Source: Spongiibacter taiwanensis (GTDB lineage Bacteria; Pseudomonadota; Gammaproteobacteria; Pseudomonadales; Spongiibacteraceae). Taken from it: DNA of 64,000 bases. Below are positions 3 through 7,780 of the stretch, piece after piece. Location: positions 3,596,001 to 3,660,000 of the forward strand of contig NZ_CP098455.1 of NCBI RefSeq assembly GCF_023702635.1, in the 5' to 3' direction. Made by a program: the position numbers and the translations under genes. Below the pieces are notes generated by a model. That model searched no databases and had not been told where the DNA came from. It saw only the letters and a program-made list of their open reading frames with translations. Within the stretch, counting starts at the first letter, position 1, and every line of letters begins with the position of its first letter.

Positions 3-479
3 GAAAATCGTGGTTTGCGCGCTCGCTTGCGCCGGGTGGAGCGCCCGGATGATGCTTTGTTGACGGAGGCTTTCTTTAATTTTCTGGAGTATGTTCCGCC
101 GCGCTGGGCTGAAACAGAACATCTTTACGCGAGTGCGTTGGTTGCCTGTGCCTTGGCTCAAGTAAGGCATAACCAACCTGGGAGAAGTTTTGCTGCTCAA
201 TTAGGCGGCGGTGAAGACGTTGCTGTAATGAGTGATCTCCGTTTTCGGCAGCTGATTAAAAGCCGTACCCCTGAGGAATTCTTTCGCAGGCTGATTCGGG
301 CCATTCGTATGCTCAATGGTGGTGTCAATATTCTTTCCCTTGTTGAGGGCATTCTGCGTTGGTACGACGAATATCAAACAGGTCCCGATCGCAATCCGGT
401 AAACCGGCTCAGTGTGCTATGGGCCAAGGATTATTACCTTCCATCTAACTCATCTACTACTTCAAAAGGAACTGAATAA
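3..479 (+). CDS. casB: Cascade small subunit CasB/Cse2, 5' end cut by window edge
   Basis: This is the C-terminal part of the type I-E Cascade small subunit, two copies of which line the crRNA-target complex and stabilise the displaced strand. The reading frame is open from base 3 without a convincing start. The visible N-terminal residues include an ARLRRVERPDD segment, which matches the family's RxRRxxxxD region, and roughly the first 20-40 residues of the usual 160-200 should lie to the left. A TTG at 15 is therefore not taken as the start. The stop codon overlaps the cas7e start by one base (TAATG), so the two are translationally coupled. The identification rests on weak primary-sequence similarity plus position immediately upstream of cas7e. 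Confidence 0.85.
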   Translation, partial: ENRGLRARLRRVERPDDALLTEAFFNFLEYVPPRWAETEHLYASALVACALAQVRHNQPGRSFAAQLGGGEDVAVMSDLRFRQLIKSRTPEEFFRRLIRAIRMLNGGVNILSLVEGILRWYDEYQTGPDRNPVNRLSVLWAKDYYLPSNSSTTSKGTE

Positions 480-1555
480 TGAGCCGCTTTATCCAGATAC
501 ATCTACTTACTGCATATCCTCCCGCCAATTTGAATCGTGACGATCAGGGGCGTCCAAAAACCGCCAAAATGGGTGGCGTTGATCGTTTGCGTGTTTCTTC
601 TCAAAGTTTGAAGCGCCATTGGCGTACCTCCGAATTGTTTGGGCAAGCGGTGTCTGGCCACTTGGGTACGCGTACCAAGCGACTGGGACTGGGAATTTAT
701 GATCGTCTGACTGAGGCAGGCATAAAGGATAAAAATGCGTTGACCTGGGCAGCCACCATCGCTGGAGAGTTTGGTAAGAATAAAAAGGCGGATAAGAATG
801 ATCCACTTAATGAATTGGAAATTGAACAATTAGTCCATATCGGGCCGGATGAACAGGCCCAAATAGATCAGCTGGTCGCAACACTTATTGAGGAGCAGCG
901 CGCGCCGGAAAAAGGCGAATTGGACTTGCTGCGCGAGACTACCTCTGCGGTGGATATTGCCCTGTTCGGTCGCATGCTGGCGTCAAAGCCAGCATACAAC
1001 ATTGAGGCGGCCTGCCAAGTTGCCCATGCCATTAGTGTGCATCCGGTTGTGATAGAAGATGACTACTTTACCGCTGTTGATGATCTGAATGACGGTCGGG
1101 AAGATGCGGGTTCATCGCATATTGGTGAAACAGGCTTTGCCGCGGGCTTGTTTTATTCCTACCTGTGTATCAATCGTGAACAACTTATTGAAAACCTGAA
1201 TGGGGATGCCGCGTTGGCTAACCGCGCGATCGCGGCATTGATAGAAACGGCGATTAAAGTGCCACCCTCAGGGAAGCAAAACAGCTTTGCCCATCAGGGC
1301 TACGCGAGTTATGTGCTGGCTGAGGCGGGCAATCAGCAACCGCGATCCCTTTCGGTTTCTTTCCTTAAGCCGGTGGAGGTTCGCGGCTTGATTGATAAGG
1401 ATTATCTTACCCAGGCTGTAGATGCCATTCGCCAGCAGTATCAGGGCTTTGACCAGGTGTATGGCCCTTGCGCTGATCGCCGATATGAAATTTGTGTTGG
1501 TGAGCGCCTCGGTGCCATGGGCGAGCTGCTGGACTTTGTGGGTGGAGCCGAATAG
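479..1555 (+). CDS. cas7: Cascade backbone subunit Cas7e (Cse4/CasC)
   Basis: Cas7e is the RAMP protein that polymerises along the crRNA and forms the six-subunit backbone of type I-E Cascade. The 358-residue product opens with the family's signature: MSRFIQIHLLTAYPPANLNRDD, then GRPKTAKMGGVDRLRVSSQSLKR, the conserved N-terminal block of Cse4. Later blocks such as DIALFGRMLAS and the GYASYVLAEA region also fit. Length matches the family (about 350-365 residues). The ATG overlaps the casB stop by one base, and cas5e follows after 9 bp, so the gene belongs to one transcript with its neighbours. Nothing is missing or truncated. Confidence 0.96.
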   Translation: MSRFIQIHLLTAYPPANLNRDDQGRPKTAKMGGVDRLRVSSQSLKRHWRTSELFGQAVSGHLGTRTKRLGLGIYDRLTEAGIKDKNALTWAATIAGEFGKNKKADKNDPLNELEIEQLVHIGPDEQAQIDQLVATLIEEQRAPEKGELDLLRETTSAVDIALFGRMLASKPAYNIEAACQVAHAISVHPVVIEDDYFTAVDDLNDGREDAGSSHIGETGFAAGLFYSYLCINREQLIENLNGDAALANRAIAALIETAIKVPPSGKQNSFAHQGYASYVLAEAGNQQPRSLSVSFLKPVEVRGLIDKDYLTQAVDAIRQQYQGFDQVYGPCADRRYEICVGERLGAMGELLDFVGGAE

Positions 1556-1564
1556 GAGGCGATA

Positions 1565-2338
1565 ATGGATTATCTGCTGTTTCGGCTTTACGGCCCCCTG
1601 GCCAGTTGGGGGAATATTGCCATTGGCGAATCCCGGCACAGCTTTCATGGGCCAACAAAATCTGCGGTGATGGGGCTGGTGGCGGCAGCTCTGGGTATTC
1701 GCCGTGAGGAGGAGTCCCAGCATCTGCGGTTGAATCGCGAGTATCACATGGCGTCAGCCTTGTTCAGCCAAGGCAGTTTGTTGCGGGACTACCACACGGT
1801 GCAGGCACCGGATACTGTAGGAAAATTTACCTATCGCAGTCGTCGAGATGAGTTGGTGATCGGCAAAGACCGTCTGGGTACGGTGCTTTCCAGTCGCGAA
1901 TATCGTAGCGATGCCCTGGCATGGGTGGCTTTGCGTGCAGAGGACGGGGTTCCCTATACCCTTGAGCAGATTGCAGATGGATTGCGAACGCCCATATTTA
2001 CGCTCTACCTAGGGCGTAAGTCCTGCCCGCTGGCCGCCCCGCTTGATCCACAACTTGTTGTTGCTGACGGCTTTGCAGAGGCATTTAAAAAGTATCAACC
2101 CCGTGGGATTTCTCCCGTACTGGAAAGACAGTCAGAGCGTTTTGAGCGGGATGTTCTTTGCCGTGATCAATCGGTGGAGTATTGCTGGGAGGGTAACGTT
2201 GAGGATTTTGGTAGTGAAGGGCGATTGGATAAAAGCCAATTACTCAGTGAGACACAACACGACCGCCTGAACTCCCGGAGACGCTGGCAGTATGCCCCCC
2301 GACAGATTTATCACTACCGTACCAAGGAGGGTGTGTAA
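1565..2338 (+). CDS. cas5e: Cascade subunit Cas5e (CasD)
   Basis: Cas5e is the RAMP subunit that caps the 5' handle of the crRNA in type I-E Cascade. The 257-residue protein begins MDYLLFRLYGPLASWGNIAIGE and continues with RHSFHGPTKSAVMGLVAAALGI, the typical Cas5 N-terminal fold region (PLASWG and PTKSAVxGLxAAALGI). A YHTVQAPDTV segment follows. A strong Shine-Dalgarno (AGGAGG, 1555-1560) precedes the ATG. The stop codon directly abuts the cas6e ATG with no gap, supporting tight translational coupling. Length is normal for the family. Confidence 0.95.
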   Translation: MDYLLFRLYGPLASWGNIAIGESRHSFHGPTKSAVMGLVAAALGIRREEESQHLRLNREYHMASALFSQGSLLRDYHTVQAPDTVGKFTYRSRRDELVIGKDRLGTVLSSREYRSDALAWVALRAEDGVPYTLEQIADGLRTPIFTLYLGRKSCPLAAPLDPQLVVADGFAEAFKKYQPRGISPVLERQSERFERDVLCRDQSVEYCWEGNVEDFGSEGRLDKSQLLSETQHDRLNSRRRWQYAPRQIYHYRTKEGV

Positions 2339-3232
2339 ATGTACCTTTCCCGCGTGACCTTGAAACCCGATATTGGTCAAAACTCACAGTTGGGTCGGCT
2401 TCTGCAATCCAATACCTATGGCACCCATCAACTACTCTGGGATTTGTTTGATCAGGAAAAGCGGGATTTTCTCTACCGGGAGGAAGTCGCGAAGGAGCAG
2501 TTGAAGCAGCACGCTGGAGCAAAAGGTGAGCCCGTTTACTATGTGCTTTCTGTGACAAGGCCCAGAGAAAGCACGCCGCTTTTTACTGTGGAATCCAAGG
2601 AATACCGGCCCCAATTTCAGGCTGGTCAACGCCTCTCGTTTTGCCTTACGGCCAATCCGGTCGTTACCCGCGATAAAAAGCGCTGTGACCTGGTAATGGA
2701 TGAGCAGTTGGTGTTTTTTCGCCAAGCCTGTAAAGAAATTGGGCTGTCGTGCGAGGGAAGCAAAGGCGACCTAAAAAGACGGCTAATGGAAAATCAGCGC
2801 GCATCTGCTGTGACGGACTACTTGTGCAGTTATCTAAGCCAAAGCCGGTGCTTTGCGGATGCTGTGGCGGGGCACAGTGTCGATGTTCTTCTTGGTTTGG
2901 CGACGCAGGAGGCCGTGTCTCGTCGGCTGATTCAGTGGCTGGCGCACAACCCTTCGCGGGATGGCTTGTTTTCTATTGCGGAGCAAGAGGTGGAGGATGA
3001 TGACGGTGATCGAGAGATAACGGTGCCGGTTTTTCAGTGGCAGCGTTATCGAATCCATCCACTACCGCAAAAGGATGCCTCTGCGCGAAAGCAACAGGCT
3101 CGTTTTCTTTCGGTTGATATCTCGGGGGAGTTGATTGTGAAAGACCCGGAAGGGTTTCTTACCATGATTAATAACGGGATTGGTCCGGCGAAGGCATTTG
3201 GCTGTGGCTTGATGCTAATCCGCCCGCGATGA
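2339..3232 (+). CDS. cas6e: crRNA endonuclease Cas6e (Cse3/CasE), enlarged by an internal insertion
   Basis: Cas6e cuts the pre-crRNA within each repeat and stays bound to the 3' hairpin as a Cascade subunit. The start MYLSRVTL, His30 in TYGTHQLLWDLF (position of the E. coli catalytic His20), and the C-terminal glycine-rich loop GIGPAKAFGCGL are all present. At 297 residues it is about 100 longer than E. coli Cas6e (199). The excess lies between KKRCDLVM (about residue 113-120) and FQWQRYR (about 232). It includes a helix-turn-helix-like stretch at about 124-151 (CKEIGLSCEGSKGDLKRRL) that resembles a SAP motif; this is inference. An acidic tract EDDDGD follows at about 219-224. The stop overlaps the next gene's ATG by four bases. 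Confidence 0.93.
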   Translation: MYLSRVTLKPDIGQNSQLGRLLQSNTYGTHQLLWDLFDQEKRDFLYREEVAKEQLKQHAGAKGEPVYYVLSVTRPRESTPLFTVESKEYRPQFQAGQRLSFCLTANPVVTRDKKRCDLVMDEQLVFFRQACKEIGLSCEGSKGDLKRRLMENQRASAVTDYLCSYLSQSRCFADAVAGHSVDVLLGLATQEAVSRRLIQWLAHNPSRDGLFSIAEQEVEDDDGDREITVPVFQWQRYRIHPLPQKDASARKQQARFLSVDISGELIVKDPEGFLTMINNGIGPAKAFGCGLMLIRPR

Positions 3233-4089
3233 CTCAGGAATCAACAAACCCACTCAAGGATGAGTCTATGAAAGCAAAGCTGCAGGTGCTGGAGCAGGAA
3301 ATTGCTACCACAACCAAGGATGGCGTCGAGTACATCAATATCACGGATATTGCGCGTTACAAGAATAGCGAGCGCACAGATGACTTGATTCGAAACTGGT
3401 TGAGAAATCGCAATACCATTGAGTTCCTTGGTATTTGGGAGCAACTCAATAACCCGAATTTTAAACCCGTCGAATTCGACGGGTTTAAAAAAGAGGCGGG
3501 GTTGAACAGCTTTACCCTCACGCCCAAACAGTGGGTAGAGAAAACCGGCGCCATCGGCATTTTATCCAGCCGTGGCCGCTACGGCGGGACCTTCGCTCAA
3601 AAAGACATCGCCTTCGAATTCGCCAGTTGGATCTCCGTCGAATTCAAGTTGTATCTCATTAAGGAGTTTCAACGTTTAAAAGAGCAGGAGTTTCAGCAGC
3701 TTGGCTGGGATATTCGCCGCAATCTGGCCAAGGTCAACTACCTGATTCACACCGACGCCATCAAGGAAAATCTGATCCCGGATACCTTGCTTCCCCAACA
3801 GATTAATGCAGTGTACGCCAGTGAAGCCGATCTGCTTAACGTGGCGTTGTTCGGTATTACCGCCCGCGAATGGCGTGATGCCAATCCTTCTTTAACGGGG
3901 AATATGCGTGACCACGCCAGCGTGCAACAACTGGTGTGTCTGGCCAATTTGGAATCGCTCAATGCCCATTTTATTGATCAGGGGCTGGGGCAGGCTGAGC
4001 GGGTAGTAAAGCTCAACGAGCTAGCAATCCGCCAGATGGGTATCCTGACTTCCAGTCAAAACCCGCTAGTCGAAAAGGGGGAGGAGTGA
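3229..4089 (+). CDS. KilA-N domain putative DNA-binding protein embedded in the cas operon
   Basis: This gene is not a known Cas component. Residues about 34-148 form a KilA-N domain: YINITDIARYKN, IRNWLRNRNTIEFLGIWE, GRYGGTFAQKDIAFEFASWIS and YLIKEFQRLKE are hallmark blocks of this DNA-binding fold, known from phage P1 KilA, poxvirus proteins and many bacterial orphans. Residues about 150-286 are a helical C-terminal half of unknown role. Two starts are possible: ATG 3229, which overlaps the cas6e stop (ATGA), or ATG 3268 behind an AAGGATGAG sequence. The latter gives a more usual N terminus (MKAKLQVL). A perfect 32-nt palindrome lies within the gene at 3459-3490. A 102-bp gap separates it from cas1. 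The domain call is firm; any role in CRISPR regulation is speculation. Confidence 0.88.
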   Translation: MTQESTNPLKDESMKAKLQVLEQEIATTTKDGVEYINITDIARYKNSERTDDLIRNWLRNRNTIEFLGIWEQLNNPNFKPVEFDGFKKEAGLNSFTLTPKQWVEKTGAIGILSSRGRYGGTFAQKDIAFEFASWISVEFKLYLIKEFQRLKEQEFQQLGWDIRRNLAKVNYLIHTDAIKENLIPDTLLPQQINAVYASEADLLNVALFGITAREWRDANPSLTGNMRDHASVQQLVCLANLESLNAHFIDQGLGQAERVVKLNELAIRQMGILTSSQNPLVEKGEE

Positions 4090-4191
4090 GCGAGGGACGA
4101 GCACTGCAGTTACGTCGTTGTCTGAAGGGCTCAACACGGCGGGGTTTTAATCTGGCGCGAGGTCGGTACGGACATAAAAGGAAGCTGTCCA

Positions 4192-5435
<1,244 letters not shown>

Positions 5436-5491
5436 TCGGTAGATTTTTTCATCGCCGATTTGTTCTTTAAAAACAAGCATGTAGACTTAGT
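5436..5491 (+). promoter_or_regulatory. CRISPR leader
   Basis: This AT-rich 56-bp stretch between the cas2 stop and the first repeat is the leader end, where new spacers are inserted and from which the pre-crRNA is transcribed. It contains TTGTTCTTTAAAAACAAGC, which resembles the leader-repeat junction of other I-E arrays. I could not find a good match to the IHF consensus, although IHF assists spacer integration in E. coli and both IHF subunit genes occur in this window. Part of the true leader may extend into cas2. Confidence 0.7.
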
Positions 5492-7780
5492 GTGTTCCCC
5501 ACGCAGGTGGGGATGAACCGATATGGCGGCGTTTTATGTTGCAAATCCCGAGGTGTTCCCCACGCAGGTGGGGATGAACCGCAACCAGCTAAAAATAAAC
5601 CTGTTGCCGAAATGTGTTCCCCACGCAGGTGGGGATGAACCGCAGAAAATCGACCAGCTCTTTGAACAGATTAAGTGTTCCCCACGCAGGTGGGGATGAA
5701 CCGCGTTTGACGAATGGTTTTGTGCTGGGAAGGGGTGTGTTCCCCACGCAGGTGGGGATGAACCGCAAAAACAGAGCAGTATCATCGAATTTCCCCAGTG
5801 TTCCCCACGCAGGTGGGGATGAACCGGCACTTGACGCGAAGAGAAGCAATAACAATAAGTGTTCCCCACGCAGGTGGGGATGAACCGGTATCACCGGCTT
5901 TATCCTGACAGCTTGGAGGGTGTTCCCCACGCAGGTGGGGATGAACCGCCCATTATCAGTGAGAGCCCCATATAGGAAACGTGTTCCCCACGCAGGTGGG
6001 GATGAACCGCCATATTCCCAGCAAAAACAGGAGTTGGGGAGGTGTTCCCCACGCAGGTGGGGATGAACCGTATTCGGTCATCATGCAAATTTGAATGCAT
6101 TTGTGTTCCCCACGCAGGTGGGGATGAACCGGGGGCCGACAACCCAGTATTCGAACGGGGGGCGTGTTCCCCACGCAGGTGGGGATGAACCGCGAACCAA
6201 CAATCAGCAATATCTGTGGGCGCAGTGTTCCCCACGCAGGTGGGGATGAACCGAGTATCGGCATACCTCCGCCGAATTGCTGGAGGTGTTCCCCACGCAG
6301 GTGGGGATGAACCGTGGGGCTGTCGCCTGATGGTACTGAGCCCGCTGTGTTCCCCACGCAGGTGGGGATGAACCGCGGGCGCGGCCTACACGCTGCAATT
6401 TAGCGACGTGTTCCCCACGCAGGTGGGGATGAACCGGCATGTTTGAGGCTATCGCAGCCCTGCAGGGCGTGTTCCCCACGCAGGTGGGGATGAACCGAGA
6501 TAAGCCGGTAGCGGTACGCGGTGCCGGGGGTGTTCCCCACGCAGGTGGGGATGAACCGAGTTAGACGCGATCCATGATCTTTTTGTCGAAGTGTTCCCCA
6601 CGCAGGTGGGGATGAACCGATACCGGCGCACAGTGGGCGGCATTTTGTTGGGTGTTCCCCACGCAGGTGGGGATGAACCGCAATACCAAAACAGCGCTCA
6701 ATCAGAGGTTGCGTGTTCCCCACGCAGGTGGGGATGAACCGGCTTTCGCGTCCCGCTGGTTGATAGCTTCCTGGTGTTCCCCACGCAGGTGGGGATGAAC
6801 CGGTTCCCCCACCAGTTCGCCGGGTTCCCCTCGCGTGTTCCCCACGCAGGTGGGGATGAACCGTACCGGGCGGTCGGTCGGTGGTGGTGGGGTATGTGTT
6901 CCCCACGCAGGTGGGGATGAACCGCGGCAAACATATCGACTACAGGGGCACCTGATGTGTTCCCCACGCAGGTGGGGATGAACCGCTTTCGCGTCAGCTC
7001 AGACGGGCTCAGGTCCAGTGTTCCCCACGCAGGTGGGGATGAACCGAGTTGGGCAGTGTGGTGGCAGACCGCTACTACGTGTTCCCCACGCAGGTGGGGA
7101 TGAACCGCACCTTGGCGGGGTCTTCGCGGAACGCTGCAGCGTGTTCCCCACGCAGGTGGGGATGAACCGCGCTGCAATCGGTTTCGGGCCGTGGTGGCTG
7201 GGTGTTCCCCACGCAGGTGGGGATGAACCGTCCCTACGTCTAACGCGGGCCGACCCATCCCCGTGTTCCCCACGCAGGTGGGGATGAACCGCGTTGGTGG
7301 GCAATACTGGCAATCAGGCTGCGGTGTTCCCCACGCAGGTGGGGATGAACCGCGCACATCGACTGGCTGCTAGGCCCGCACAAGGTGTTCCCCACGCAGG
7401 TGGGGATGAACCGATACCGGCGCACAGTGGGCGGCATTTTGTTGGGTGTTCCCCACGCAGGTGGGGATGAACCGCATTCCCGTCGAAACCTACACGCTAG
7501 GGATCGGTGTTCCCCACGCAGGTGGGGATGAACCGCCGGATTCCCACATTAGCCGGTGGATGCGTTCGTGTTCCCCACGCAGGTGGGGATGAACCGGTGG
7601 CATCGGTGTGGCCAGCAGATTCAGCAGCGTGTTCCCCACGCAGGTGGGGATGAACCGCTACTACATCTACGCAGACCTGAACGGTCAACGTGTTCCCCAC
7701 GCAGGTGGGGATGAACCGCCTTTGTGCTCGCCATCGCCCTGCATCAGCACCGTGTTCCCCACACAGGTGGGGATGAAAAG
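5492..7780 (+). CRISPR. Type I-E CRISPR array, 38 repeats and 37 spacers
   Basis: The 29-nt repeat starts GTGTTCCCCACGCAGG and ends TGGGGATGAACCG, with a CCCCAC/GTGGGG stem typical of the E. coli-type repeat family. I located 38 copies. Spacers are 32 nt except three of 33 nt (5704-5736, 7108-7140, 7719-7751). The last repeat, 7752-7780, is degenerate (G to A at position 12 and CC to AA near the 3' end), marking the leader-distal end and confirming the leader is at the cas2 side. Spacers 19 (6620-6651) and 32 (7414-7445) are identical. Short open frames through the array are repeat artefacts. Spacer targets could not be searched. Confidence 0.99.

Follow-up and report, generated by a model that had tools for sequence, protein, structure and literature searches.

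The principle of an operator that lies within the gene it controls is already known. C.Kpn2I has its site inside its own gene, and the bound protein stalls the elongating RNA polymerase (PMC6237814). BstA, a KilA-N-like protein of prophages, has a cognate DNA element that overlaps its own gene (PMC8585504). CreP is described in a review as a KilA-N protein with a tie to CRISPR-Cas (PMC12737573). The PDC-S22 family has been reported to co-occur with other systems, and the accessible portion of that report contains nothing on a palindrome or a mechanism (PMC12813430). Here, we analyzed a 64,000-nucleotide stretch of the Spongiibacter taiwanensis genome (GCF_023702635.1, contig NZ_CP098455.1, positions 3,596,001 to 3,660,000; hereafter, the window), in which a KilA-N gene of the PDC-S22 family stands within a type I-E cas operon and carries a 32-bp palindrome in its own open reading frame (ORF). 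We consider it probable that the encoded protein is a sequence-specific DNA-binding autoregulator whose operator is the palindrome in its own ORF, read by residues ~50-56.

A palindrome within the KilA-N reading frame

The features on which this reading is built are as follows.

3229..4089, + strand: KilA-N / PDC-S22 gene (start perhaps at 3268)
3459..3490, no strand: 32-bp perfect palindrome within the KilA-N ORF, proposed operator
3376..3396, + strand: codons of residues 50-56 (TDDLIRN), which predict the palindrome core; part of the model helix 50-59

The palindrome at 3459-3490, already pointed out by a reading of the letters alone (the sequence-only reading), was perfect over 16+16 bases, far beyond chance. 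Across 102 homologous loci, the base pairs 1-16 positions out from the centre were complementary in 66-101 loci, and those at positions 17, 18, 19, and 20 in 11, 16, 34, and 3 loci. Within the 30-nt core of 98 distinct sequences, 1335 of 1470 pairs were complementary versus 866±14 under a null model in which synonymous codons were resampled by each gene's usage (1000 runs; largest value, 913), which ruled out chance or codon bias as the source of the palindrome. Taken individually, 91 of the 98 sequences were significant at p≤0.01 and 95 at p≤0.05. The palindrome centre reached 13.6 of 15 pairs, compared with 6.6 of 15 for the best other codon-boundary centre scanned. The site remained palindromic across phyla although both its bases and the amino acids encoded by it change, the peptides including FKPVEFDGFK, FKVIEFDDFK, FKVLEFEDFK, FNSLEFEGIK, and FNYGEFAIIK, among others. 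An in-frame palindromic insertion element was set aside, as the variants are common to one position and covary with the protein.

Most of the evidence points to selection on the palindrome as double-stranded DNA, with some part for RNA conceivable. The preference for DNA over RNA rests on codon 82, which is fixed as GAA (93/93; expected, 52.5) despite a third base unable to pair in a hairpin, and on the mismatches at pairs 4-9, where G-T and A-C occurred at equal levels (12 and 13, respectively, with 18 others). Codon 83 was TTC in 90 of 94 sequences (expected, 37.8), and the control codons 65, 66, 129, 130, and 131 exhibited no raised conservation.

Covariation of the protein with its palindrome

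The 4-bp core of 110 distinct protein-site pairs was compared with each seven-residue segment of the protein from residue 20, excluding the stretch encoded by the palindrome and using neighbours no more than 65% identical. The segment at residues 50-56 performed best, with 50% of 107 tests yielding an exact prediction of the core (median segment, 11%). Where core base 4 is G (78 sites), residue 55 was arginine or lysine in 72; where it is A or C (32 sites), in 0. Residue 51 followed core base 2, being mostly D/N with C, K/R with G, and A/G with T. The 36 loci with neighbouring I-E cas genes fit one code, in which a CCCG core accompanies DD..R (17/17), CCCA accompanies DI..G (4/4), GTCA accompanies G...G (11/11, two with an imperfect right arm), GTCC accompanies AH..G (3/3), and TCCG accompanies DD..R (one case, with an imperfect right arm). 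All 16 pairs were complementary in 21 of these 36 loci.

The same relation was found where the palindrome has moved out of the gene. Matches were obtained in 15 of 350 Lactobacillaceae genomes, and two lactobacillal homologues without an internal palindrome have one just 5' of the start codon. Among the 12 lactobacillal copies examined (L353, L359, and L361-L370, not counting fragments L371-L377), 11 had a palindrome in the leader region in which 10 or more of the first 12 pairs are complementary; it is imperfect in L361. These leader palindromes share the centre TCGAWWTCGA, and a palindrome with this centre was found within the ORF in 0 of the 12 copies; the ORF of L362 contains an unrelated AT-rich 10-of-12 match near the usual place. 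The palindrome lies 116-151 nt from residue 40 across the 11 leader copies, and in L367 and L368, whose longest ORF starts before the palindrome, the leader position was assigned from this distance. When trained on ORF sites, residues 50-56 predicted 7 of 11 leader sites exactly (next unrelated segment, 5.6; median, 12%).

Structural modeling with AlphaFold (mean predicted local distance difference test [pLDDT] score, 88) placed a helix at residues 50-59 and a second helix, largely encoded by the palindrome, at residues 80-89. The N-terminal domain resembles the DNA-binding domains of Mbp1 and PCG2, and the C-terminal helices resemble DdrC, both with moderate Z scores; a profile search of Protein Data Bank sequences returned no match at E≤0.1. 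Judged from these sequence comparisons, the KilA-N protein appears to recognize the palindrome in its own gene, and the covariation of protein and palindrome across bacteria suggests a self-limiting switch upstream of the adaptation genes.

The KilA-N locus and its conserved place

The ORF at 3229-4089 encodes 286 residues and lies between cse2-cas7e-cas5e-cas6e upstream and cas1e-cas2e downstream, the latter followed by a 38-repeat I-E array.

3..479, + strand: cse2, truncated by the window start
479..1555, + strand: cas7e
1565..2338, + strand: cas5e
2339..3232, + strand: cas6e
4192..5124, + strand: cas1e, proposed to be under the roadblock
5127..5435, + strand: cas2e, proposed to be under the roadblock
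5494..7780, + strand: I-E CRISPR array of 38 repeats, the last one degenerate

The assignment as a KilA-N domain gene between cas6e and cas1e, also made in the sequence-only reading, was borne out by Pfam (KilA-N, PF04383; residues 25-152, E 4.7e-21), by PADLOC (candidate family PDC-S22; 433 bits, residues 15-278), and by the I-E Cas proteins on both flanks. The protein also matched PHROG 2657, annotated as a transcriptional regulator. PDC-S22 was the sole family listed in the PADLOC scan of the protein at E≤0.01, a scan that included no comparison aimed at BstA. The four-base overlap with the cas6e stop, noted in the same reading, holds for the longest ORF; it would give way to a gap of ~35 bp if the true start is Met14 (codon at 3268). 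This start may be the genuine one because the alignment of most homologues begins there, an AAGGA stretch directly precedes it, and the structure model is of low confidence for residues 1-14. No promoter-like match was found in 2300-5500 of the window. Elsewhere in the locus, one spacer (ataccggcgcacagtgggcgg...) is present twice in the array (6620-6651 and 7414-7445), and Cas6e (2339-3232; 297 residues) has a weak SAP-like match at residues 128-152 (E 0.0014, below the Pfam cut-off).

A single-protein search, which favours close relatives, was run over one genome per species and yielded 94 relatives, of which 80 were kept. I-E cas genes adjoined the KilA-N gene in 35 of the 80 (34 among the first-listed L032-L066, plus L107), giving 36 loci with the window. 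The next gene was cas1e in 36 of 36, its match beginning 815-963 nt after the start of the KilA-N match, so that the one-off insertion envisaged as a refutation of the earlier proposal does not apply. Relative to the window protein, Cas7e identity fell into two groups (32-37% and 48-63%), and across the same loci KilA-N was 74-86% and Cas1e 64-86% identical; in L038 and L051, the KilA-N gene comes after cse1, not cas6e. In a midpoint-rooted tree of 118 sequences, all 36 I-E copies fell within one 39-tip clade (support, 0.88). The other three tips were L015, whose neighbours are as in the cas3-KilA-N-cas4 locus L067; L071, a type I-F locus in which cas6f precedes the KilA-N gene; and L052, whose contig holds a broken KilA-N copy and no I-E cas match nearby.

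Within a subset of I-E loci, the KilA-N gene is a conserved accessory; among I-E loci at large, it is a minority feature. Its breadth is limited by the survey of 369 genomes of the class, in which KilA-N adjoined one of 30 cas1e matches over the cut-off, namely the window's own, and in which some PDC-S22 match occurred in 28 genomes. A full-length copy was found in 1 of 21 genomes of the family, again that of the window, with a weak partial match in one other. In the Pfam neighbour analysis, which covered chosen loci from the 80, more distant homologues adjoined type I restriction-modification (R-M) operons (hsd genes), MmeI, jetD, and integrases; some stood by a BREX-like or similar helicase-methylase pair, and others by unrelated genes.

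Several observations stand beside this survey. Locus L067 contains a BRO-N domain gene between cas4 and cas1 (L067:11486-12352). The conjugative Aeromonas salmonicida plasmid pS44-1 (L114) carries a PDC-S22 gene close to copies of IS26 and to genes for macrolide and aminoglycoside resistance. In-frame stops were present in nine homologous stretches, located solely before match residue 10 in L042, L046, and L056 and deeper in L052, L062, L086, L099, L100, and L102, indicating that some copies are broken.

Copies of the palindrome elsewhere

A scan of the window's own genome that allowed up to 3 mismatches, over either 24 or 32 bp, returned one site, the palindrome in the ORF. A regulator of the cas promoter or array was set aside on this ground, more degenerate sites being conceivable. 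The earlier idea of a regulator was thus upheld insofar as the protein looks like a DNA-binding regulator, and the binding to the cas promoter, leader, or array imagined for it found no site at this threshold.

Orphan copies lie on phages and prophages, mostly where the KilA-N gene is absent. The exact 24-mer occurred in 17 stretches of virus contigs, one within a KilA-N gene, and two altered 24-mers and the GTCA type had 0 exact copies there. The 18-mer (CCCG) core occurred in 45 stretches in IMG/VR, several of them belonging to phages that are close relatives; no KilA-N domain is seen in 43 of these 45 records, which may be fragments. Among named phages, a 30-mer query returned 158 records, 37 of them over at least 80% of the query and including six satellite phages whose own KilA-N gene was the match. 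An altered 30-mer returned 8 records (4 over at least 80%, two of those KilA-N genes), and a GTCA-type query returned 36 (4 over at least 80%). A KilA-N domain was found in 0 of 11 named phage or plasmid records with orphan sites that were searched whole (TPW22 left out). Among the 120 matches listed for the TCGAATTCGA centre, 51 were perfect palindromes, 7 of these in KilA-N genes, compared with 6 palindromes among 32 sites for a control centre. The other 44 perfect palindromes listed included 22 that were terminator-like; 36 of these 44 orphan sites, and 11 of 17 orphan core types, fell within the KilA-N repertoire of 20 types. None of 5000 permutations of the core letters reached 11 types for these listed matches (mean, 5.5; maximum, 10).

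A CCCG-type site within 1 mismatch was present in 12 of the 350 lactobacillal genomes. Two sites were KilA-N leaders, one lay by a KilA-N remnant, and nine were orphans in genomes without a PDC-S22 match. An integrase adjoins six of the nine (identified in five from a PHROG match and in L387 from its likeness to L386); the neighbours of the remaining three are a terminase, an acetyltransferase, and a member of an unknown phage family. That the palindrome does more than autoregulate is hinted at by its phage copies, which might act as decoys, tags, or titrators; terminator use may explain part of them.

Orphan palindromes adjoined integrase genes in phages, prophages, or plasmids in L384, L386-L390, L346, and L356. 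The orphan of L354 (~3001-3040), on an L. curvatus plasmid with phage genes, has a flank, GTTCGTGTTC, common to the KilA-N leaders of L353 and L110, and from this shared flank it looks like a captured leader element. A phage ORF (L123:3301-3639) contains the exact 24-mer in frame, encoding KPVEFDGF, by chance or convergence; its product presumably resembles DUF1064 proteins.

Discussion

We infer binding, dimerisation, and a transcriptional roadblock over KilA-N and cas1-cas2. The KilA-N protein, probably as a dimer, would bind the 32-bp palindrome inside its own reading frame, with residues ~50-56 of the KilA-N domain reading the variable core. The bound protein would block RNA polymerase arriving from upstream in the cas operon, and this roadblock would cap the level of KilA-N and that of the downstream adaptation genes cas1-cas2. 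If incoming DNA brought further cognate sites and replicated, these sites could titrate the protein off, lifting the cap. A further step, a titration sensor for adaptation, is doubtful in our estimation. Such a sensor would sit on the palindrome of its own gene, throttling cas1-cas2, until phages or prophages with the same palindrome type pulled the protein away while replicating and spacer acquisition opened; each lineage would possess its own protein-palindrome address, written as a helix-to-base code. Conversely, the phage copies could be counter-defence tags against the protein.

Several observations weigh against autoregulation through the palindrome. The roadblock is proposed from the position of the palindrome and from precedent in another protein family. 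Kinship in the code test was handled by the identity cut and the cross-lineage test, with no phylogenetic model. KilA-N pairwise distances tracked those of Cas1e modestly (Spearman 0.36; Cas2e, 0.28; Cas7e, 0.11), lone KilA-N copies adjoining housekeeping genes exist, and L108 has no palindrome in either its ORF or its leader. Autoregulation by itself does not account for the orphan palindromes on phages. When all 16 pairs are counted, G-T mismatches (51/161) exceeded A-C mismatches (34), mostly at outer pairs 14-15, and RNA of the palindrome would fold well (z -4.9). These last two points, together with the terminator-like flanks of many phage copies, also favour an RNA hairpin or a terminator-like element in the mRNA. 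We nevertheless give this idea almost no probability, as the central pair is kept although it is unpairable in a hairpin, no G-T excess exists at pairs 4-9, the palindrome covaries with a helix of the KilA-N protein, and no terminator-like match was found at the palindrome of the window.

The other explanations retain a DNA-binding protein or dispense with a role in CRISPR. It is unlikely, in our view, that the protein inhibits foreign DNA by abortive infection in the manner of BstA, with the palindrome conferring self-immunity and the phage orphans being protective. The BstA precedent and the listing of PDC-S22 by PADLOC as a defence candidate support such a function, as do the CCCG core on phages without KilA-N (43/45 in IMG/VR and 11/11 named records searched), the permutation result for the orphan core types among the matches listed (0/5000 equal to 11 of 17), and the extra leader sequence of the L354 orphan. 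Against it, aba has direct repeats, not a palindrome (PMC8585504); virus contigs contain no exact copy of the GTCA type, which ranks second in frequency among I-E loci; and half of the orphan sites among the matches listed (22/44) are terminator-like. A self-regulated mobile passenger, settling in operons and mobile elements without any role in CRISPR or restriction, seems still less likely. Its homologues do adjoin hsd genes, MmeI, jetD, integrases, and unrelated housekeeping genes, and 29 of 30 sampled I-E loci are without KilA-N, but the CRISPR copies form one clade with a fixed place before cas1e over differing effector operons. Very improbable is a KilA-N toxin gene silenced by Cascade with a CRISPR RNA-like guide and released upon Cascade inhibition, a model suggested by the link of CreP to CRISPR-Cas. 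The KilA-N gene lies within the cas operon with no promoter-like match of its own, no copy of the CRISPR repeat was found outside the array at ≤3 mismatches (more degenerate ones being conceivable), and the palindrome and its code have no place in that model.

If autoregulation through the palindrome holds, a recurrent regulator has been added at the adaptation genes of some type I-E, and at least one type I-F, CRISPR-Cas operons. The palindrome would then exemplify dual coding, as a DNA operator that sets amino acids of the reading frame in which it lies and evolves together with its reader protein. Through the helix-to-base code, the sequences bound by an uncharacterised candidate defence family would become predictable and open to testing, and the PDC-S22 family would be tied to palindromes already present on many phages. 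Our literature search did not find a KilA-N protein with a co-evolving palindrome in its own coding sequence in CRISPR-Cas operons. It returned no literature joining KilA-N with R-M and hsdS, or with DdrC, and KilA-N was absent among the matches listed for autorepression and operators.

Three known systems resemble this locus to different degrees. C.Kpn2I is like the proposed KilA-N operator in having its site in its own coding region and in belonging to a defence system; it differs in being a Type II R-M controller close to XRE proteins, with neither a KilA-N domain nor a CRISPR connection, and in the place of its motif, which is at the start of the ORF or immediately before it (PMC6237814). 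CrePA, from the description in the review, shares a KilA-N protein tied to CRISPR-Cas, whereas its toxin gene is repressed at the promoter by Cascade with CreA and the window gene lies inside the cas operon (PMC12737573). BstA is like PDC-S22 in being KilA-N-like, in its prophage setting, and in having a short DNA element that overlaps its own gene, an element that is cognate for BstA and putatively so here; the BstA variants have their own elements, as the protein-palindrome types appear to do (PMC8585504). The aba element differs, being 63 bp in length, spanning the gene start, and containing direct CCCGCC repeats (PMC8585504). The defence activity of BstA has been demonstrated, whereas the PDC-S22 protein is a candidate, and the likeness is drawn from description (PMC8585504). 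By profile (433 bits), PDC-S22, itself a candidate family, is the KilA-N protein's own family.
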